This document shows, in pieces, positions 7,041-62,772 of a stretch of 64,000 nt of DNA; position 1 is the first letter of the stretch; every line of letters starts with the position of its first letter. The position numbers and the translations under genes are program-made. The DNA comes from a virus, in the IMG/VR virus record IMGVR_UViG_3300024518_006178, positions 1 through 64,000 of that record; one strand, given 5' to 3'. The notes under the pieces are model-generated. The model searched no databases, had not been told where the DNA came from, and worked only from the letters and a program-made list of their open reading frames with translations.

Positions 7041-7778
7041 GTGGCTAGCAGAAAGAAAACAGCGCGTAGCTTCGCCGATACGAAGACGGTCGCAATTGGG
7101 AAGCATAAGGTGTCCGATGGCGGACATGACCAGCATAGGGATGGGCGGTCAGGATGGAATGCCGATCTCGGCAGCCGGTTCCACCCTCAGCGATCTCGTG
7201 CCTCCGAAGAGACGGAGTATTCGGGGACTCAGTCCACCTCGTACGACCGATCTTCAAGAACGGGAGAAAAGGTGGCCTTTGACCCCATCCCCTATATCTC
7301 AGGGGCTGCGGCTGGGGCTGGTCTTGCCGGTGCCCTTCGCCCTAGCCTCATGCCCCATGTTGGACGCGGTGCCGCAAGATATGCGCCTATAGCGGGTGCC
7401 CTGGTGGGGGCCGGGCTTGTGGTCGCGGGTCAGTACGCAAAAAAGATCCGAGAGGAGCGTCGCAATGCGATGCTGGATAACTGGAGCTCTGCTGGTGTCC
7501 CGACGGAGGGGGAGGAAAAGGTGGCCTTTGACGCCCTGCCCTATATCGTGGGAGCATCCGGTGGTGCGGCAATCGGCAATTACCTGAAAGGTAATATAGC
7601 TAAATCCCTGGGGCGCACGGCTGCGAGCGCAGGTCCGATAGCTGGCGGGCTGGTAGGGCTCGGGCTAATTGGCGCTGGCCACTATGCGAGCAGAGCCAAG
7701 TCTCGGCGTCGCCATAATATGATGAAAAGGTGGATGAGCGGTGGCGCTCCCTCCTACCGTAGAAGTCTCGGCATTTAG
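7041..7778 (+). CDS. Glycine-rich protein with internal duplication (GTG start)
   Basis: 245 residues from GTG 7041, which fits the SD GGAAGGGG; an upstream TTG at 7020 would also be in frame. Two similar units follow a basic N-terminus. Each has EKVAFD..PYI, then a Gly/Ala-rich hydrophobic stretch (e.g. GALVGAGLVVAG, GGLVGLGLIGAG) and a basic end (..RR..M...W...G.P). The hydrophobic parts could insert in a membrane, as expected for an ejected protein. The GEKVAFD heads look like the tag seen at the N-termini of nearby proteins. Confidence 0.65.
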   Translation: MASRKKTARSFADTKTVAIGKHKVSDGGHDQHRDGRSGWNADLGSRFHPQRSRASEETEYSGTQSTSYDRSSRTGEKVAFDPIPYISGAAAGAGLAGALRPSLMPHVGRGAARYAPIAGALVGAGLVVAGQYAKKIREERRNAMLDNWSSAGVPTEGEEKVAFDALPYIVGASGGAAIGNYLKGNIAKSLGRTAASAGPIAGGLVGLGLIGAGHYASRAKSRRRHNMMKRWMSGGAPSYRRSLGI

Positions 7779-7790
7779 CTGGAGGAAAAG

Positions 7791-7982
7791 ATGAGCGAAG
7801 AGCGCAAAATGGACCTGAGAGAGTACAAGAACGTCTGTCAGGGCAAAAACGGCGATAAGAGCGTGAACGAAAGCCTCTTGAAGAACATTGAGCGCGCCAC
7901 GGGTGGGCGCAGCTTGACCAAGAGCGAGTTCGACCACGTTCACGGCAAGATCAAGATGAAGCAGGCCTCCGAGGGGCAGTAA
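7791..7982 (+). CDS. Small charged protein
   Basis: 63 residues, Lys/Glu-rich and helical. SD GGAGG lies 6 nt before ATG 7791. The stop overlaps the next start (TAATG). No family recognised. Confidence 0.65.
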   Translation: MSEERKMDLREYKNVCQGKNGDKSVNESLLKNIERATGGRSLTKSEFDHVHGKIKMKQASEGQ

Positions 7983-10962: not shown

Positions 10963-13422
10963 ATGGCTAACGGGACTATCCCACGTCCGGACGCTTTTGT
11001 TGAACAAGTGTTCGGGGAGGCAACTCCCGCATTGCTACCGCCGCCGCTGCCGGTGGTAGTCATTGGGACGGCAAAACAAATAGAATTTCGCCAGCAGGCC
11101 GGGTCCTATGCGGCGAGCACAGCAGCTACCTACGCATATCCGAATTTGCTTTCGGGTGCATCTGTCGACTTGGCATCGGTTGAGGCGTTCCTGTTCACTT
11201 CGGACGGGACGTTCCAGCTGGACAGCGGGGACTTCAGCGCCACGGCGTCTGGGGTGCAGGTGCTGTCGTATGTCACGACCTCTGATTTCGTTACCGAGGA
11301 TCAAGTCAACGGCGAGATCCAGGGTGACGAAAACATCCAGGACCCGACCGCGTACGAGGCGGATGGCGCGGGCACTATTGCCACCAAGGTGTTCACCTCG
11401 TTGTTGTCGGACTTCGTCGCGGCGGGCGTCAAGGCCGGGAACCTGCTGGAGATCATCGATGACGGTGGCGGTGGTGCCGACAACCTCCAGTACCGTGTCG
11501 ACGAGGTCACGGACCTCAACACCTTGGTTCTCCGCTTGGAGCCCGAGGATGAGTGGACGGGCTTCACGGCAGGCATCACCGGGGCCACGTTCCGCGTGAT
11601 TGCTGACTGGACTACGTTTAAGGACGAGACGGTCGACTTCCAACAGCTTGGTATAGTTGGCGGCCTCAGCATGGGGGTCATCATCGATGGTGCTCGCTAT
11701 CGTGTTGAGTTTGTTAAGAGTGCAACCGAGCTGGCCATCAACCCCGAGCAGCTCGGCGCGCTCAGCGTGACCACGATCATCGGAACGCCCGGTGGCGTCT
11801 TGATCTCGGGTGACTTTACGGATGAAATCCTTCCAGGCGACAAGATCGTCATCGAGACGGGTGCCGATGCGGGCATCTACGAGGCCGACACGGTCGTCTA
11901 CGGCGTGCCGAACACCACGGTCACGTTTATCACGGGCGACGACATTACCGCCGCCACCACCGAGCCGATTCACACGTTCAGGCCTCTCACGGCTGCGGTG
12001 GACGTTGCCTACAGCATCGACGAGAATCGCACGGACCGTAACGGTACGATCCTTCTGTCGTATGATGCGGACAGAACGGACCTGAGCGGCGTGCTCACCC
12101 AGATCCAGGACACGGATGACCTCAATAACACGCTCGGCGCTTCCGTTCCGGAAAACCCGCTGGCCTTTGGCGCGTTCTGGGCTCTACAGAATACGGGCAC
12201 AACCGTATTCGTCATCGGTATCAACAGTGACACCGTGGCTGAGCACGCGTCAGCGCTGGACATTCTCGGCAACGAGGAGGTCTACGCTCTGGCACCTCTT
12301 ACGCAGGATTCTACCGTGCATCAGCTGTATGCTGCGCACGTCACGGCGTTCTCCGCTGTGGACGCGAAGCGCGAGAGAATCGTCTTCCTGAACAGGGAGC
12401 TGTTCGTTCAGGAGACCAAGATCGACGAGGCGGACGGCACCAGCGCCGTCGCCACAAACGCCACGCCTCCGGCCAACGACTCGTTCGTTGATTCCGGTGC
12501 GGACTTCACAACCGACGGCATCATTGCGGGTGACGAGATCACCTGGACCTATACGCCGGATGGTGGATCCGTGACGACCCAGACCATCAGGGTTCTGGAC
12601 AGGTCGAACAGCACGACGCTGCTCCTGATCGAGGGTCTGCCCTCGATATTCTTCACGGACTGGGCGGCGGGCTCGACCACGGCCAAGACCTACACGATCA
12701 AGTCCAGGTCGCTTGACAAGTTCGAACAGGCTGAGTTCATTCGCGACTACTCAAAGGCCTTCGCCAACCGTCGCGTCTACAATATCTGGCCTGACCTGGC
12801 CGAGTTCACCTACACGGACAACACCCGTGATACGGACTTCCTGACCCAGGCCGAGCTTACCGGTACGCCGCCCACGACGGGCGACTTCACCGGTGTGTTC
12901 CCGGGGTACTATCTGTCATCGGTGTACGGAGGCCTCGTCGCAGGGCAGCCTCCGCAGCAGCCGTTCACCAACGTCAACGTTGTCGGCCCCACCGGGCTGC
13001 GCAACTCGAACAGGTACTTCACTGAAACCCAGATGGACATTATCGCGTCCGGCGGGACGTTCATTGTGATCCAGGAGGCGGAGGATACTCCGGTATTCTG
13101 CCGCCACCAGCTTTCGACCGATGTTACCATCATCGAAAAGCGGGAGCTGTCCATCACGAAGGACGTGGACTTCATCGCGAAGTTCTTCCGTAATCAGCTG
13201 AGGCCCTACGTTGGCAACCAGAACATCACGACCGTGTATCTTGAGCAGCTCAAGATCGTGGTGAATTCCCTGATCGAGAGGTTGGTCGCGGACGGCCAGC
13301 TTATTAGCGGCAGCCTGATCACGCTCAGACAGTCCGATGAAGAGTCGGACACCGTGCTGGTTGAGGTTGATATTCTCGTGCCGTTCCCGGCAAACTACAT
13401 CCGCGTCACCCTGTTCATCTGA
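10963..13422 (+). CDS. Tail sheath protein
   Basis: 819 residues. The N-terminus (IPRPDAFVEQVFGEAT.ALL....PVVVIGTA) and the C-terminal domain (L..LK.VVNSLIERLV..G.L, then L.QSDEESDTVLVEVDI-LVPFPANYI) are the usual signature of contractile tail sheaths, and the next gene fits a tube. It is longer than common sheaths (about 400-700), with inserted beta domains, one of which (FTTDGIIAGDEITW) resembles the protein at 9483. SD AGGAGAG precedes the ATG. It forms the contractile outer layer of the tail. Confidence 0.88.
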   Translation: MANGTIPRPDAFVEQVFGEATPALLPPPLPVVVIGTAKQIEFRQQAGSYAASTAATYAYPNLLSGASVDLASVEAFLFTSDGTFQLDSGDFSATASGVQVLSYVTTSDFVTEDQVNGEIQGDENIQDPTAYEADGAGTIATKVFTSLLSDFVAAGVKAGNLLEIIDDGGGGADNLQYRVDEVTDLNTLVLRLEPEDEWTGFTAGITGATFRVIADWTTFKDETVDFQQLGIVGGLSMGVIIDGARYRVEFVKSATELAINPEQLGALSVTTIIGTPGGVLISGDFTDEILPGDKIVIETGADAGIYEADTVVYGVPNTTVTFITGDDITAATTEPIHTFRPLTAAVDVAYSIDENRTDRNGTILLSYDADRTDLSGVLTQIQDTDDLNNTLGASVPENPLAFGAFWALQNTGTTVFVIGINSDTVAEHASALDILGNEEVYALAPLTQDSTVHQLYAAHVTAFSAVDAKRERIVFLNRELFVQETKIDEADGTSAVATNATPPANDSFVDSGADFTTDGIIAGDEITWTYTPDGGSVTTQTIRVLDRSNSTTLLLIEGLPSIFFTDWAAGSTTAKTYTIKSRSLDKFEQAEFIRDYSKAFANRRVYNIWPDLAEFTYTDNTRDTDFLTQAELTGTPPTTGDFTGVFPGYYLSSVYGGLVAGQPPQQPFTNVNVVGPTGLRNSNRYFTETQMDIIASGGTFIVIQEAEDTPVFCRHQLSTDVTIIEKRELSITKDVDFIAKFFRNQLRPYVGNQNITTVYLEQLKIVVNSLIERLVADGQLISGSLITLRQSDEESDTVLVEVDILVPFPANYIRVTLFI

Positions 13423-29348: not shown

Positions 29349-31454
29349 TTACAACTCAACGGGCGTGCCCATGTCGTGAACACGCCACCCTTTATACATA
29401 CCTTGAGTGGCTGCCATATCAGTGACTCGCTCGTTACATGAGGCGAGCATGACATTGTCCAGCCCACCCGCCACGTCGTCCAGTGCTTTAACGAGGAACC
29501 CGAAGCTGTTCGCGTCGAGCTCCGCCGCCTCGATACAAAGCGCCTTGACAGGCGGATCTGCGAGCTGGATCAGCGCGACCACGAGGGCTGCGCCAAACAG
29601 GATCTTCTCGCCTCCGGACAGTGTGAGATACGGTATCTTGATCGAGTTCTCGACCTTGAAGATCTCAAAGACCTCCTTGCCGTTTCTGTCGAACAGGTTG
29701 AACTCGATCTTGTACCCGTGACTCTTCAGGAGCTCGTTGACCTTCTTCCTGATTGGGCCAACCACGTCCTTCATGATCTTGGACTGCAAGCCCTTCGGCC
29801 CCAGCGCCTTGGCCAGACCGACGGTGCTTTCCATCGTCTCCTCGGCCTCGGCGATCTTGGCCACACACTCCTGGAATTGATGTTCAAGATGCTGCGCCCT
29901 CCTGGCCTTCCTTAGGCGCTCTTCCAGGGCGTCAATCTGGGTGGTCATGGTCCTAAGAAGCACATCTGCGGCCCCGAGGCCGACAGGTGCCGCTGTTCCG
30001 TCGAGGATGGTCTGGTTCTCCCCCTTGGCCTTGCGCAGATTGACAAGAGCATTCGCATGCTCCTCATTTCGCCGCTGCGCATCCTTGGCCTCGAATCGCA
30101 GCTTGTTGAGGTCGGCCTCCTTGAGCTGCAACGCCCTGGTCTTTTGGGCCCGGCTGTCGCTGAGGCTGTCTCGCATCTCATATGCAGCCCTCCACGCATC
30201 ATGGGTGCTCCGGCGTGCCTCGGCGTGATGCCCGTCCAGGGTGCTTTGGAGGTCCTGCGCCTGCTTTCGAAAGCTATCCTGTGTGTCGCCAAGTTTGTCG
30301 AGCATGCCATTAAGGAGGTCCTGTTCAACCGCATCGGGCCCCATAATCTCATGGAGCAGAGGCAGAACAACTTCGTTAATTGTATGAATCTTTGTGTCGC
30401 ATTCCAATATTGCTTTGGCGCAGGCGTCGCTGGAGTCGTCAGCCTTGTTCCACAGCTCTTCTTTTTCTTTGGCATCAGAAGTCGCCGTTAGTACCGCAGC
30501 TTTGAGCTCCTCGACCTCCTGCCTTATGGCTTCCTCGTGACGCTTCGCCTGCTCAACTGCGGTCTTGGCGGCTTCAATGTCGGGCAGCTTGTCGGCCACC
30601 TCCTCCACAGCAATTAGCTCGCCCTCCAGGGCGCTCCTTTTGGCGATCAAGGATTGACGGGTCGTGCCCATTACCTGAGCCCCCGCCATCTCTTTCTCGA
30701 TCTCAGTTTTCTGTCCACGAAGCTCCTTCAGTTGACCATCAAGAACTTGGGGGTCTTCGTGCTCCTCCATCTGTGCCGTCTGCTTTTCTTCAAGTAGGCT
30801 GTCATGCGACTTAGCTAGGGATCTAACCACTGCCTTGAGGTCAAGCGCCTCCCTCGTGAATATGTCCACCATGCTGGCGAGGTTGTCAACAACGTTGACG
30901 TTGTCGCGCCAGCGCTCTTGAACCCACCCGTGATGGGCTTCGGCGATACCCTCGAAGGCTTTGGCCTTGTCCCACCCCAGTTTCTCGGGTGACGACAGTC
31001 CAAAGACGAAGTCCCGCTTCCTGGTGTCGGACATGCCCAGGAACTCGTCGAGATCGAACATGATGCTGAAGCTGCCCACCTCGTCGACGATGGCCTTCTT
31101 GCGCTCCTCGTCGTTTTGTGCTCCGTGAGCCCTCGAAGAGTGGTGTTCCGTTCTTGTCTTATGGGTGACGGACCCGTCCTTGTGTTTGGTCTTCGCCCTT
31201 TTATATATGCGGCTGAACGTAGATCCGCCCTCAAGGCTGCCCAGCACGAGTAGGTGGTCCCCCGTGGAGACCTGTAGAATTGAGTCCGCCGTCTTGCCCA
31301 CCTTGGGCAGGTAACCGCTCAAGAGGAGCGTTAGCGCCTCAAGATATGTCGATTTTCCAGAGCCGTTCGGGCCGACAAAGATCTCCCGGCCCGACAGCTT
31401 TGTGTCAAACGATGCGCCCTTAAAGTTCTGGACGCTTAGTTCCTCAACCTTCAT
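29349..31454 (-). CDS. SMC/Rad50/RecF-like ATPase
   Basis: 701 residues. Walker A GPNGSGKST (28-36), two helical arms with coiled-coil composition (about 215-560) and an ABC signature LSGGEK (612-617). The expected Walker B (hhhhDE) reads ALCIEAAELD at about 638-647, so the catalytic Asp-Glu pair seems replaced by Glu-Ala. It would bind DNA ends or structures in recombination. ATGA overlap with the upstream gene and SD AAGGAG. Confidence 0.85.
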   Translation of the reverse strand: MKVEELSVQNFKGASFDTKLSGREIFVGPNGSGKSTYLEALTLLLSGYLPKVGKTADSILQVSTGDHLLVLGSLEGGSTFSRIYKRAKTKHKDGSVTHKTRTEHHSSRAHGAQNDEERKKAIVDEVGSFSIMFDLDEFLGMSDTRKRDFVFGLSSPEKLGWDKAKAFEGIAEAHHGWVQERWRDNVNVVDNLASMVDIFTREALDLKAVVRSLAKSHDSLLEEKQTAQMEEHEDPQVLDGQLKELRGQKTEIEKEMAGAQVMGTTRQSLIAKRSALEGELIAVEEVADKLPDIEAAKTAVEQAKRHEEAIRQEVEELKAAVLTATSDAKEKEELWNKADDSSDACAKAILECDTKIHTINEVVLPLLHEIMGPDAVEQDLLNGMLDKLGDTQDSFRKQAQDLQSTLDGHHAEARRSTHDAWRAAYEMRDSLSDSRAQKTRALQLKEADLNKLRFEAKDAQRRNEEHANALVNLRKAKGENQTILDGTAAPVGLGAADVLLRTMTTQIDALEERLRKARRAQHLEHQFQECVAKIAEAEETMESTVGLAKALGPKGLQSKIMKDVVGPIRKKVNELLKSHGYKIEFNLFDRNGKEVFEIFKVENSIKIPYLTLSGGEKILFGAALVVALIQLADPPVKALCIEAAELDANSFGFLVKALDDVAGGLDNVMLASCNERVTDMAATQGMYKGWRVHDMGTPVEL

Positions 31455-59633: not shown

Positions 59634-59972
59634 CTACTCAGGAATCGTCATAGGGATACCATTTAGCGACTTTTCCTTAGGGTCGATAAGCAACGTTCGG
59701 TCAAGGACCTCTCCTTCTGATGGGTCACTGACCTTGCCAGACTTCTTCGAGCTTCCGGTCTTGATACGACGGTATAGCTTGTCGTCTTGAAGTTGCTCGA
59801 TGAGGGCCTGCATCCTTTTCACCGTTTTCACGCAGGCTCGCCTTCTTGCAAGAGTGACCTCGTCCAGATCTTGAGTGCTCATCATCCGTGTGATCTGGAC
59901 GTGCTGACGGGACGCCTCTTCCATCTGTTTTGTATATACCCTAATTAGGATCTCTCTTTCTAGTTTTGTCAT
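59634..59972 (-). CDS. RT-coupled helical accessory protein
   Basis: 112 residues from ATG 59972, which overlaps the RT stop as ATGA; SD GGGAGG lies 10 nt upstream. A GTG 18 nt further up is also possible. Helical and charged (MTKLEREILIRVYTKQMEEA..., RRRACVKTVKRMQALIEQLQ), then a disordered Ser/Lys stretch and a short hydrophobic end. No family recognised. Tight coupling makes it a likely partner of the RT, or an effector. Confidence 0.75.
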   Translation of the reverse strand: MTKLEREILIRVYTKQMEEASRQHVQITRMMSTQDLDEVTLARRRACVKTVKRMQALIEQLQDDKLYRRIKTGSSKKSGKVSDPSEGEVLDRTLLIDPKEKSLNGIPMTIPE

Positions 59973-61318
59973 ATCAGTAGGACCTCCCACTGCGTTTTCA
60001 TTCTATTTGTTCTTTCCGGATTCACCATTTGGAAGAACGCTAGGTTTCCGGACACCCATCCGGTGAATCTTTTGGGCGACACGCCCGCCTTTTTGGCCGC
60101 AGCCGGTATACCCAGTACCTTGGCGTTGTGGATCGCCGCTCGCACGCGACGGAACTTCTGGCGAGAGATATTGGGCTTCTCGTTTGCCACGAGACCTGTT
60201 ACCCACTGTCTGCGCCCCCTTCTCATGATTTTGGTCTTTGCCTCATTCACCTGGAATCCCTCCTCTGCGACTATCCGTTTTACGACGCTGATGATGCCAT
60301 CCACGGCACCGAGGACGTAATTAGGGTTGTCTGCCCTGCTGAACGAGAAGGTTATGTCGTCCGCGTATCTTGTGTACGTCCACTTTTGGCGGCCCAGGTA
60401 GCTCTGTAGCTTCTTGTCTAGGCGGTAGGTCACCATGTTGGACAGACGTGGGCTGGTCGGTGCCCCCTGCGGCAGAGCGCCCTTCCATGTGGATATGGCC
60501 GTGATTATTCCGGCCACCTTAGTGTCGAGCCCCACGCTTTTTAGGGCTCCGAATACGCGCGGGAACCCAATCGAAGGGAAGAAGTCCTTTAGGTCTAGGC
60601 TGATCACAATGTCCTTACCCGAATGCCGCTCGGCATTCTCGCGAATGCTAATGCCGGGCTCAAATCCCACGGATGCCGGATGGGCTGGGACCTGATAGAG
60701 GACGTGTTCGAGTATGGCTTTTTGCAGCCACTTGAGTGCGCTGTTCGGGGCGGTGATCTCTCGCTGCCCTGTTCCGTTCCTTTTCGGGACGAACCAACTG
60801 TGGTACAGCGTTGGGTCCTTGTGGGCTAGACGCCTCAGCATCCAGGTGATAAGTCGGTTCTTTCTGCCAACAGCCATGGCCAGATCGAACGACGTTTTTA
60901 AGTCCGAGATCTTTATGGTGGGAACCTTGACCGGCTGAGAGATGATGAAGCCATACTCCTCATTCATAGGAGCGCATCTCTTGCATACCGCCTTCTTCAT
61001 GGGGTAGCAGATCTTGTAGTGCGTGCAGGCACCACAGATCGGGGACGCCAGCCAGTTCATGCAATTGCGACGATTGTTCTTGTTGTTGTGTTGCCAGCAG
61101 GCGAACCTATTGGCACAGGCTTCACATACGGAGGCGTGCGTCTTGCCGCCCAGGACAAACGGTGTGCTCCAGAATATCTTGCTGACAGTTACGGCACCTT
61201 CGTAGCTTTTTTCCGCAGGGGTTGTCTGCACGACCCCCTGGCTCGACTTCACTTTCCTCAAGAATACAGGGTGTCGCTGCCCTTTGTGATCAAGGAAATA
61301 GCAGTCATCTGGCTTCAT
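59969..61318 (-). CDS. Retron-type reverse transcriptase with Cys-rich N-terminus
   Basis: 449 residues. RT motifs in order: R186-E-I-T-A-P-N (RT1), GFEPGISIRENAERH (218-232) and D242-L-K-D-F-F-P-S-I (RT2/3), L-P-Q-G-A-P-T-S-P (282-290), Y318-A-D-D321, and V373-T-G-L-V-A-N (377 on) with R-x-x-R-x-x-x-R-x-x-I-H. The NAxxH and VTG elements are hallmarks of retron RTs; DGR RTs have SQ after the G motif. Catalytic Asp: 242, 320 and 321. The N-terminal 160 residues carry Cys 65, 68, 74, 86, 95, 98, 104, 112 and 115, a likely multi-zinc domain not usual in retrons. SD AGGAG. Makes msDNA from the upstream RNA (inference). Confidence 0.92.
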   Translation of the reverse strand: MKPDDCYFLDHKGQRHPVFLRKVKSSQGVVQTTPAEKSYEGAVTVSKIFWSTPFVLGGKTHASVCEACANRFACWQHNNKNNRRNCMNWLASPICGACTHYKICYPMKKAVCKRCAPMNEEYGFIISQPVKVPTIKISDLKTSFDLAMAVGRKNRLITWMLRRLAHKDPTLYHSWFVPKRNGTGQREITAPNSALKWLQKAILEHVLYQVPAHPASVGFEPGISIRENAERHSGKDIVISLDLKDFFPSIGFPRVFGALKSVGLDTKVAGIITAISTWKGALPQGAPTSPRLSNMVTYRLDKKLQSYLGRQKWTYTRYADDITFSFSRADNPNYVLGAVDGIISVVKRIVAEEGFQVNEAKTKIMRRGRRQWVTGLVANEKPNISRQKFRRVRAAIHNAKVLGIPAAAKKAGVSPKRFTGWVSGNLAFFQMVNPERTNRMKTQWEVLLI

Positions 61319-61361
61319 ATCTTCAGCTCCTATCTTTAGTTTCCAATCGTCTAGGTTGCCA

Positions 61362-61409
61362 AATATCTCGAAATGGCTTTACTCGCAGAGTAAATGCATG
61401 AGAGATATT
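61362..61409. repeat. Hairpin array unit H0, nested in a longer stem
   Basis: Inner hairpin TTTACTC-GCA-GAGTAAA (61378-61394), 7-bp stem and 3-nt loop, inside outer arms AATATCTC (61362-61369) and GAGATATT (61402-61409). Last hairpin before the RT; AT-rich, unlike the others. Confidence 0.8.
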
Positions 61410-61448
61410 GTCGCAATCGTAAGTGTGTGTCGAGAACGATAGATCCCA

Positions 61449-61465
61449 GACGGCGAGACGCCGTC
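61449..61465. repeat. Hairpin array unit H1
   Basis: GACGGCG-AGA-CGCCGTC: perfect 7-bp stem, 3-nt loop. On the minus strand it is preceded by CCTATGTATATTGT, similar to the segments before H3 and H5. Confidence 0.85.
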
Positions 61466-61519
61466 ACAATATACATAGGAGTTGCTAAGGCAGGCCTGCT
61501 TTACTTGGCGCGGCGGCTG

Positions 61520-61548
61520 GATGCGTCCGCCGCCTCGGCGGAAGCATC
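61520..61548. repeat. Hairpin array unit H2 (extended stem)
   Basis: TCCGCCG-CCT-CGGCGGA (61526-61542), 7-bp stem and 3-nt loop, extended by GATGC/GCATC beyond one mismatch. An alternative pairing of GGCGGC (61512-61517) with GCCGCC (61529-61534) is possible. Confidence 0.82.
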
Positions 61549-61604
61549 TCTTCCTAAAACCGACGCAATTAACACGTTGTGTTGTGGAGAAACAAAAGTC
61601 CACC

Positions 61605-61621
61605 AGGGGCGAAGCGCCCCT
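61605..61621. repeat. Hairpin array unit H3
   Basis: AGGGGCG-AAG-CGCCCCT: perfect 7-bp stem, 3-nt loop. Compared with H1 and H5, outer pairs change on both sides, keeping the pairing. Confidence 0.85.
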
Positions 61622-61660
61622 GTAATGTACCAGGCCCTTGCTTGACTATACGTGGTCCAC

Positions 61661-61688
61661 CCAGATTGGACACGGCATCACAAAATAC
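61661..61688. repeat. Degenerate array unit between H3 and H5
   Basis: CCAGA-N12-TCACAAAATAC aligns with CCAGA-N13-TCACAATATAC of the H1 unit (from 61447), but the central hairpin is lost. Looks like a decayed copy. Confidence 0.5.
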
Positions 61689-61696
61689 TCTTCCGT

Positions 61697-61713
61697 AACG
61701 GCGATGCGCCGTT
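61697..61713. repeat. Hairpin array unit H5
   Basis: AACGGCG-ATG-CGCCGTT: perfect 7-bp stem, 3-nt loop. It starts 20 nt after the a2 arm of the retron RNA on the minus strand. Confidence 0.85.
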
Positions 61714-61733
61714 GAAATACACCAAGGGCTTTA

Positions 61734-62025
61734 TCTACCGGCTGGCTGCTAACGGACCCCTTTGCTTTCATGGCTGGTCAGTAAAGATCCAGCTTTCTAT
61801 GCGCGGACGCAAGGCGACCGTTGGACGTAGCGAGGAGCAACGAGGACAGCATGCGCAGCGTGATCCCGCAGTTGCCCACAGCGGTGTCCGTAGGTCGCCT
61901 GAGTACGCACAGCGGAAAGCGTTAAGGATCTTTCGAGACCTGCCCTGAGGGGTTTTGTCGTCTATTTCTCTGTGGAGGCCGAATCGGTCCCCGCCTGCCC
62001 GCTAATGGGCTACCCAGCCGGTAGA
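61734..62025 (-). ncRNA. Candidate retron msr-msd RNA
   Basis: A perfect 12-bp inverted repeat, TCTACCGGCTGG (minus strand 62025-62014) and CCAGCCGGTAGA (61745-61734), fits retron a1/a2. After a1 come G-T-A-G-C (candidate branching G at 62010) and short hairpins (GCCC/GGGC at 62010-61997; an 8-bp imperfect stem at 61974-61992), as in an msr. A long hairpin at 61783-61933 fits the msd. Transcribed in the direction of the RT. a1 starts 13 nt after the stop of the upstream gene; no clear promoter seen. The exact ends and the cDNA start need experiment. Confidence 0.72.
61783..61933 (-). other. msd-like long imperfect hairpin
   Basis: Seven nested pairings, outer to inner (minus strand): AAAGATCC/GGATCTTT, GCTTTC/GAAAGC, TGCG/CGCA, AGGCGACC/GGTCGCCT, GGAC/GTCC, GCAAC/GTTGC and TGCG/CGCA. 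The whole 151 nt folds on itself, as expected for the template of a retron DNA. Confidence 0.78.
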
Positions 62026-62037
62026 ATGGAGGACGGC

Positions 62038-62772
62038 CTATTTCATTGGAATAAGCATCAGCCGCCACCCTAGTTTATCCGTCTTGACCCACCAATTGCG
62101 CGATTCTGTTTCGACGGCGCACTTTAGTGGAAGACTGCGGTGTACCGGGCAGTCTTCCATGTGTATCTCGAAGTACCCGTCCTTGTTCTTAAAGCACTTG
62201 TTTATGTGGCCCAATTCTCCATCAAGATCGACGCGTCTTCTTTTGCGGACGCATTCCCGTAGCTTGCTGCGAAAATCAGCAAAAGGCTTTAGTTTGAAGC
62301 GTGTCTTTACCTGGACCTGTATGGCATACGCATGTATTGCCGTCTGCCATGCGGGGTAGTACGTCGACTGAGCGGAGGCGTCCCCTATGCAAATATCTTC
62401 GACGTTATAGTCGATCACACACGGATCCACCAGATATTGCATCATATACGGCCTTCGCTCTTCGGCCAATGAGGGCACCCTTGCATCTACCCAGATCTCA
62501 TCCCCGCTATTGGATTTATCTACCTGCACGATCTCTGGCAGTGCAATGGGCTTGGCGTCACAGAGCCATTCGATTGGCTCCGATAGACTCTTGCAAAGCG
62601 TCAGGGAAGTCATCGCTGAAAGCTTTGCGATGCTGAACCCCTTCTCTTGGCCTTCCATGGCGTGCTCACAGGCACGAACCTTTTGAATGTCATGCGCATG
62701 CTTTGCGGATCTTAATTGCTCCCTCAATATCGCCATGACTCGGGGGGCAATGTCTTGATATGTTGCTGTCAT
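62038..62772 (-). CDS. Hypothetical protein upstream of the retron RNA
   Basis: 244 residues, Cys 47, 60, 70, 117 and more but in no clear ribbon. Mixed alpha/beta, basic middle (CVRKRRRVDL). SD AAGGAGG. Its stop lies 13 nt before the a1 arm, so the retron RNA may be part of its transcript. No family recognised. Confidence 0.7.
   Translation of the reverse strand: MTATYQDIAPRVMAILREQLRSAKHAHDIQKVRACEHAMEGQEKGFSIAKLSAMTSLTLCKSLSEPIEWLCDAKPIALPEIVQVDKSNSGDEIWVDARVPSLAEERRPYMMQYLVDPCVIDYNVEDICIGDASAQSTYYPAWQTAIHAYAIQVQVKTRFKLKPFADFRSKLRECVRKRRRVDLDGELGHINKCFKNKDGYFEIHMEDCPVHRSLPLKCAVETESRNWWVKTDKLGWRLMLIPMK

Follow-up and report, generated by a model that had tools for sequence, protein, structure and literature searches.

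The window analysed here is a stretch of 64,000 nucleotides (positions 1 to 64,000 of the IMG/VR virus record IMGVR_UViG_3300024518_006178). Its minus strand carries a gene for a 449-residue reverse transcriptase (RT; 59969-61318) and, upstream of it, a gene for a 244-residue protein (62038-62772). The region between these two genes is intergenic and contains the hairpins described below. Sequence and structure prediction identify the enzyme as a retron RT. It matches PF00078 (RVT_1; E 8.9e-26), and its core, from about residue 150 to residue 449, contains the motifs NAxxH (NAERH), YADD (residues 318-321) and VTG. NAxxH and VTG are hallmarks of retron RTs. Among PADLOC families, RT_XIII fits best (303 bits), and the score with the NCBIfam model retron_St85_RT, 233.8 bits, is slightly under the cutoff of 235. 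Sequence matches in the PDB give retron RTs as the closest solved relatives, Ec86 first. The predicted structure has high confidence across most of residues 150-449 and low confidence over the N-terminal 140 residues, and its first 18 fold matches are all retron RTs (7v9u, Ec86, E 1e-23). The N-terminal part, of about 140 residues, is rich in cysteines. Two phage relatives share it, and bacterial type-XIII RTs have a different N-terminus. Membership of the DRT family (DRT2/DRT9/DRT10-like) was considered and rejected, with 38.6 bits for Drt2 against a cutoff of 390 and 36.6 bits for Drt3a against 200.

Directly behind the RT gene, and overlapping its end, lies a 118-residue ORF (59634-59990, minus strand). 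Weak homologues are found behind the RT in both phage relatives, called L087 (31%) and L088 (22%) hereafter, and the ORF possibly encodes a partner protein of the RT. Searches with Pfam, PHROGs and PADLOC revealed no known effector among the genes of the locus. Elsewhere in the window, a tail-sheath match (phrog_279; 10963-13422, plus strand) points to a contractile-tailed phage, and several other large genes of the record have no PHROG match. An SbcC-like protein (phrog_77) is encoded at 29349-31454 on the minus strand. As a subunit of a palindrome-specific nuclease, it could act on msDNA hairpins. No Rfam match and no tRNA were found in the window.

The intergenic region contains five perfect hairpins with 3-nt loops. 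H0 (61378-61394), H1 (61449-61465), H2 (61526-61542) and H5 (61697-61713) have stems of 7 bp, and H3 (61604-61622) has a stem of 8 bp. The preliminary description had placed five 7-bp hairpins here; all five are present where it put them, with H3 one pair longer than claimed. The five hairpins are non-random. For this 416-nt region, a first-order Markov model predicts 0.025 hairpins whose loop has 3 nt and whose stem reaches 7 bp or more, and none of 5000 simulations contained more than two. The entire window has 12 such hairpins for 5 expected, and 5 of these 12 lie within the 416 nt. H1, H3 and H5 have a constant GGCG-NNN-CGCC core with outer pairs varying on both sides, as previously noticed. 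A terminator array was discarded: the array contains a single weak site, and the other hairpins are not followed by U-runs.

On the RT strand, the hairpins are best read as parts of three small retron-type units, U1 to U3, in tandem with a large one, U0. U0 begins with a1, TCTACCGGCTGG (62014-62025), directly followed by GTAGC (62013-62009), which contains TAGC, the usual motif of the retron priming G. Direct reading then gives a candidate msr stem-loop, GGGGACCG-ATT-CGGCCTCC (61974-61992), with eight positions, one A.C mismatch and a 3-nt loop; it scores only 0.6 bits. Folding predicts the msd as a long imperfect hairpin of about 200 nt (61756-61955). Finally, a2, CCAGCCGGTAGA (61734-61745), pairs with a1 over 12 bp. 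This perfect inverted repeat is the one already attributed to an upstream retron RNA. Folded as a whole, U0 has z = -5.3.

U1-U3 show the same order: a1 is followed by a 9-nt linker and a GGCG-NNN-CGCC stem-loop (7-8 bp, 3-nt loop), and a second hairpin precedes a2. The closing a1/a2 helix has 7 bp, as compared with 12 bp in U0. In U1, a1 is GCCCTTG (61723-61729), the linker is GTGTATTTC (61722-61714) and the msr stem-loop is H5, AACGGCG-CAT-CGCCGTT (61697-61713). A candidate msd hairpin, GTCCA-ATCTGGG-TGGAC (61655-61671), follows, and a2, CAAGGGC (61634-61640), overlaps the a1 of U2 by 4 nt. U2 consists of a1 GGGCCTG (61631-61637), linker GTACATTAC (61630-61622), H3 as msr stem-loop, CAGGGGCG-CTT-CGCCCCTG (61604-61622), an msd with H2, TCCGCCG-AGG-CGGCGGA, at its tip and an outer stem GATGC/GCATC (61520-61548), and a2 CAGGCCT (61492-61498). 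In U3, a1 CTCCTAT (61475-61481) and linker GTATATTGT (61474-61466) precede H1, GACGGCG-TCT-CGCCGTC (61449-61465). The putative msd of U3 (61362-61409) runs from AATATCTC through H0, TTTACTC-TGC-GAGTAAA (61378-61394), to GAGATATT. The a2 of U3, ATAGGAG (61327-61333), includes AGGAG, the likely ribosome-binding site of the RT gene.

In all four units, G-T directly follows a1, a position that fits the retron priming G. U1-U3 have only this G and no TAGC. Their linkers resemble each other, and each opens with the putative priming G. When folded separately, U1, U2 and U3 each close by a1/a2, retain the msr hairpin and form a second hairpin, with z values of -1.9, -4.1 and -3.4, respectively. Thus U0 and U1-U3 all have the arrangement of a retron RNA, an a1/a2 helix enclosing msr and then msd upstream of an RT gene, and H5, H3 and H1 have the 7-10 bp of a retron msr stem-loop. 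This changes the picture of one uniform array of plain hairpins. H1, H3 and H5 are of msr type, H0 and H2 form the tip of the second hairpin in U3 and U2, respectively, and the segment is made of closed units with arms of their own. A single hairpin family for the whole array was abandoned once the relatives revealed msr stem-loops and msd tips. The distance of 415 nt between the upstream retron RNA and the RT start was correctly given. It is not correct, however, that an array is inserted there: U3 occupies the usual position of a retron RNA, and its a2 stops 8 nt short of the RT start codon.

To evaluate the closing helices, the best enclosing helix was sought independently for H5, H3 and H1. 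The three helices obtained, GCCCTTG/CAAGGGC, GGGCCTG/CAGGCCT and CTCCTAT/ATAGGAG, all stop at exactly the same distance from the stem, 9 nt upstream of it. When the downstream sequence was shuffled, the same shared offset arose in 67 of 40,000 trials; in 5 of 40,000, each of the three helices also scored 17 or more. Taken one by one, the a1/a2 helices of U1-U3 are not significant (P 0.16-0.33). They are short, with 7 bp including one G-U in U2, and fall just under the range of about 8-30 complementary bases of the retrons known so far. In U3, a2 coincides with the ribosome-binding site, and chance could explain part of its pairing with a1, which is pyrimidine-rich. The same coincidence leaves room for autoregulation by this RNA.

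Exact-peptide scans with the RT and with its N-terminus gave no close relatives. L087 and L088 were found by a profile scan of viral contigs. L087 is a 94-kb record of a syntenic phage with an RT 49% identical to that of the window; L088 is a 163-kb record with an RT 37-39% identical. The upstream 366-residue gene is common to both (36% and 23% identity, respectively). A scan with neighbouring genes for further phages of the lineage returned the same two records only, and no similarity to phage records was found at the DNA level. In L087, the RT gene is preceded by 1,460 non-coding nucleotides. These contain four stem-loops (GACGGCG-TTT, GAAGGCG-TTT, GGTGGCG-TTT and GGAGGCG-CTT), each with a long hairpin with a 3-nt loop behind it. 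Two of the units, C1 and C3, have a1/a2 helices of 9 and 8 bp followed by GTA, and C1 is predicted to be very stable (z = -8.2). In the two others, A and C2, just GCCTA/TAGGC is proposed as a1/a2. Some eight further hairpin modules, 53-93 nt long, separate the first stem-loop from the second (L087:2900-3465). They are delimited by a 12-nt direct repeat, GGAAAGGTAGGC, and none has its own msr stem-loop. The TAGGC of this repeat is able to pair with GCCTA in the a1 of the first unit. The pattern GGAAAGGTAGGC...GGAAAGGTAGGC was also seen in two other viral contigs, where it belongs to unrelated coding genes for pentapeptide repeats. L088 has no array and no evident RNA near its RT. Two further viral loci have candidate units: L150 has two, by reading, and L117 (RT at 1387-2307) has one before its RT and others behind it. 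Those behind (L117:3340-3910) follow the RT and a cysteine-rich 219-residue gene and are retron-like, with 12-bp a1/a2 and stem-loops with 3-nt loops.

Seven units of the window and L087 were aligned at a1, priming motif, msr and a2. In this alignment, 97% of the cells are paired, as compared with 32-49% in slid controls; the a1/a2 part of this pairing is partly by construction since complementarity guided the choice of the arms. The msr pairing, the common 9-nt offset and the common GT are independent of that choice. Changes on both sides affect 6 of the 7 a1/a2 pairs and 3 of the 7 msr pairs, the latter being all the variable ones.

These data bear on another reading of the locus, in which only U0 works as a retron RNA and U1-U3 are the leader of the RT mRNA, with additional RT-binding stem-loops for self-repression or localisation. 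We consider it unlikely. The stem-loops of U1-U3 do have the shape recognised by RTs, U3 a2 does cover the RT ribosome-binding site, and U0 does hold the canonical TAGC and the strongest a1/a2. However, a leader predicts neither a closing helix at a constant 9-nt offset around each hairpin nor second hairpins, nor the L087 units that combine 8-9 bp of a1/a2 with msd-like stems of high stability (C1 in particular).

The direct repeats of L087, with unrelated inserts between them, are what a guide array of CRISPR or TIGR type would show, as are the constant hairpins of the window, alternating with unrelated segments of 54-75 nt that would be the spacers. Yet the inserts are themselves self-complementary hairpins, and no Cas- or Tas-like gene was found with Pfam, PADLOC and PHROGs among the locus genes tested. 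A guide-like RNA had been suggested for the window, but the inter-hairpin segments have no match in the rest of the phage record or in 50,697 phage records. We find this explanation extremely improbable. DGR-like templates matching elsewhere in the same phage were also discarded, the best non-self match being 16 nt (E 0.05).

Bacterial loci with related RTs, 80 in number, were used for comparison. Many of them have a1, about 10-20 nt, an 8-bp stem-loop with a 3-nt loop, RRRCGGYG-NNN-CGCCGYYY, a long hairpin often tipped with a 3-nt loop, and a2 directly before the RT. A model of the msr core matches 56 of the 80, and the stem-loop is the msr hairpin directly after a1. When the entire window is scanned without filtering, H1 and H5 are the two best matches to this model, on the RT strand, although with weak E-values over the 64 kb (0.2 and 0.37). 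The conserved blocks of the bacterial RNAs, CCTTGCAA and TCACTG, have no match in the phage units. RT-Eco1 and RT-Eco3 bind msr stems of 8 or 9 bp with a 3-nt loop (PMC6868368), and in Eco1 the loop of the msr stem-loop is the recognition motif (PMC11754653). We read H5, H3 and H1 as msr stem-loops because of the bacterial model and because of this shape of the Eco1 and Eco3 recognition elements. By analogy, the earlier suggestion of protein-binding sites would hold in part, the msr hairpins resembling stem-loops bound by the RT.

Sites for a regulator or a replication protein, or mobile palindromes, acting at the DNA level and unrelated to the RT, are typically short palindromes too. The hairpins, however, are restricted to the RT leader in both the window and L087, their loops and flanks are strand-specific, and the stem-loop is also the msr hairpin of related retrons. 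Moreover, the outer stems vary between copies, unlike a binding site. This makes DNA-level elements very unlikely.

Four of the 56 bacterial loci (L013, L019, L025 and L033) have two msr matches before one RT, as confirmed on whole genomes, and a third a1/a2 pair is present in L013. In L033, the units hardly differ over the first 65 nt or so beyond the priming motif, and their msd stems are different. Double compensatory changes in the msd stem number 12 in L033, 5 in L025 and 9 in L013. A constant msr with a different, compensated msd in tandem units shows that, more than once, a unit was duplicated and its msd stem then exchanged without loss of pairing. A phylum-wide count of tandem units rests on few retrons, 4 of 199 genomes having any unit. 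Tandem duplication is clear in bacterial relatives such as L025, whose units are identical at 208 of 229 positions, and it raises the question of whether U1-U3 are decaying duplicates no longer in use. U1, with its 96 nt and mildly stable fold (z = -1.9), would agree with this. Nevertheless, the stems are perfect, the GGCG core is constant and a1/a2 changes are paired. The msd parts have lost sequence similarity while preserving structure, and the array is retained and bigger in L087. Decay is therefore quite unlikely, and somewhat more so than an mRNA leader.

We conclude that the phage quite probably carries a retron whose single RT works on four different retron RNAs arranged in a row. The unit anatomy, the covariation, the retron identity of the RT, the expanded array of L087 and the tandem bacterial units, all read from sequence, argue for this. 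The repeated templates imagined in the preliminary description came close. Three further retron RNAs are the best reading of the segment, each of them a template that also carries a stem-loop for RT recognition. A single transcript would carry several units recognised by the RT, being cut or folded into them. Each unit would comprise an a1/a2 helix, a priming G directly after a1 and a short msr stem-loop recognised by the RT. Its own msd hairpin would then be reverse-transcribed, so that a small set of msDNAs, one distinct msDNA per unit, would be made. We infer transcription, priming at the G after a1 and synthesis of several msDNAs, and a single RT probably copies several different DNA hairpins. 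The varied hairpins might serve as baits or decoys in conflicts between phage and host or between phages, and their variety would prevent any single phage or host factor from covering all of them. In bacterial retrons, msDNA is a sensor. Use as bait or decoy, which agrees with this role and with the constant msr and the changing msd, is the most likely purpose, if a weakly supported one. More tentatively, the phage lineage may have a natural multi-template retron, with a lengthening series of distinct msd hairpins giving an msDNA repertoire for conflict with the host or rival phages and, in L087, one primer serving many templates. We hold this wider reading to be possible rather than probable. 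It counts four units in the window; in L087, it counts four units with an msr and about eight modules consisting of msd only.

The phage locus is a variant of a retron and not a new kind of system. It is closest to retron type XIII, whose profile is the best one for the RTs of the window and of L087 (303 and 325 bits). It shares with this type the msr stem-loop behind a1 and the RT directly downstream, and some type-XIII members also carry 2-3 tandem RNAs. However, bacterial members match the RT_XIII profile over its full length (563-623 bits), N-terminal extension included, whereas the RTs of the window and L087 match in the core only. Their cysteine-rich N-terminus contrasts with the coiled-coil-like extension of the bacterial RTs, and their units lack the CCTTGCAA and TCACTG blocks. 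With Retron-Eco1 (Ec86) and Retron-Eco3 (Ec73), the locus shares the RT fold, the NAxxH and VTG motifs and an RT-recognised msr stem-loop of 8-9 bp with a 3-nt loop. In contrast, these retrons have one RNA per RT, a known effector and no tandem units.

Descriptions of retrons pair one RT with one template RNA. Several duplicated msr-msd sequences were reported in 1997 for Retron-Nex1 (Ne160) of Nannocystis exedens, as cited in PMC6868368; that account gives no RT within a kilobase and no row of different units before one RT. Multitrons, engineered retron arrays (Gonzalez-Delgado 2024, as cited in PMC11754653), likewise offer several templates to one RT, but they are man-made, and the phage array is natural. 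In the searchable literature, which leaves out most subscription papers, we did not find a natural row of retron RNAs before a single RT. As far as we found, such rows have hardly been described. If confirmed, natural rows in phages and in several bacterial type-XIII retrons, in which the msd is replaced with compensation and the msr kept, would suggest selection for sequence variation of msDNA. Such selection gives a testable prediction on what msDNA recognises. Such rows would also be natural blueprints for retron arrays, which until now were engineered. The role for a phage of a retron without recognisable effector is a question raised by this locus.

Some features of the compared loci are worth recording. 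Type-XIII RTs of about 600-640 residues, at L027:3485-5311 and in Methylobacterium and Massilia, have a C-terminal extension with hydrophobic, membrane-like segments at the end. This extension is possibly a built-in effector. Hairpin clusters were also listed in L148, L236 and L078. In L078, a bacterial MAG, at least seven palindromes (8-12 bp, 3-nt loop) cluster some 3 kb behind the RT (7286-7812), including CATAAGCT-ACA-GGCTTATG and GGTTTAAGGC-TCT-GCCTTGAACC in two copies each.
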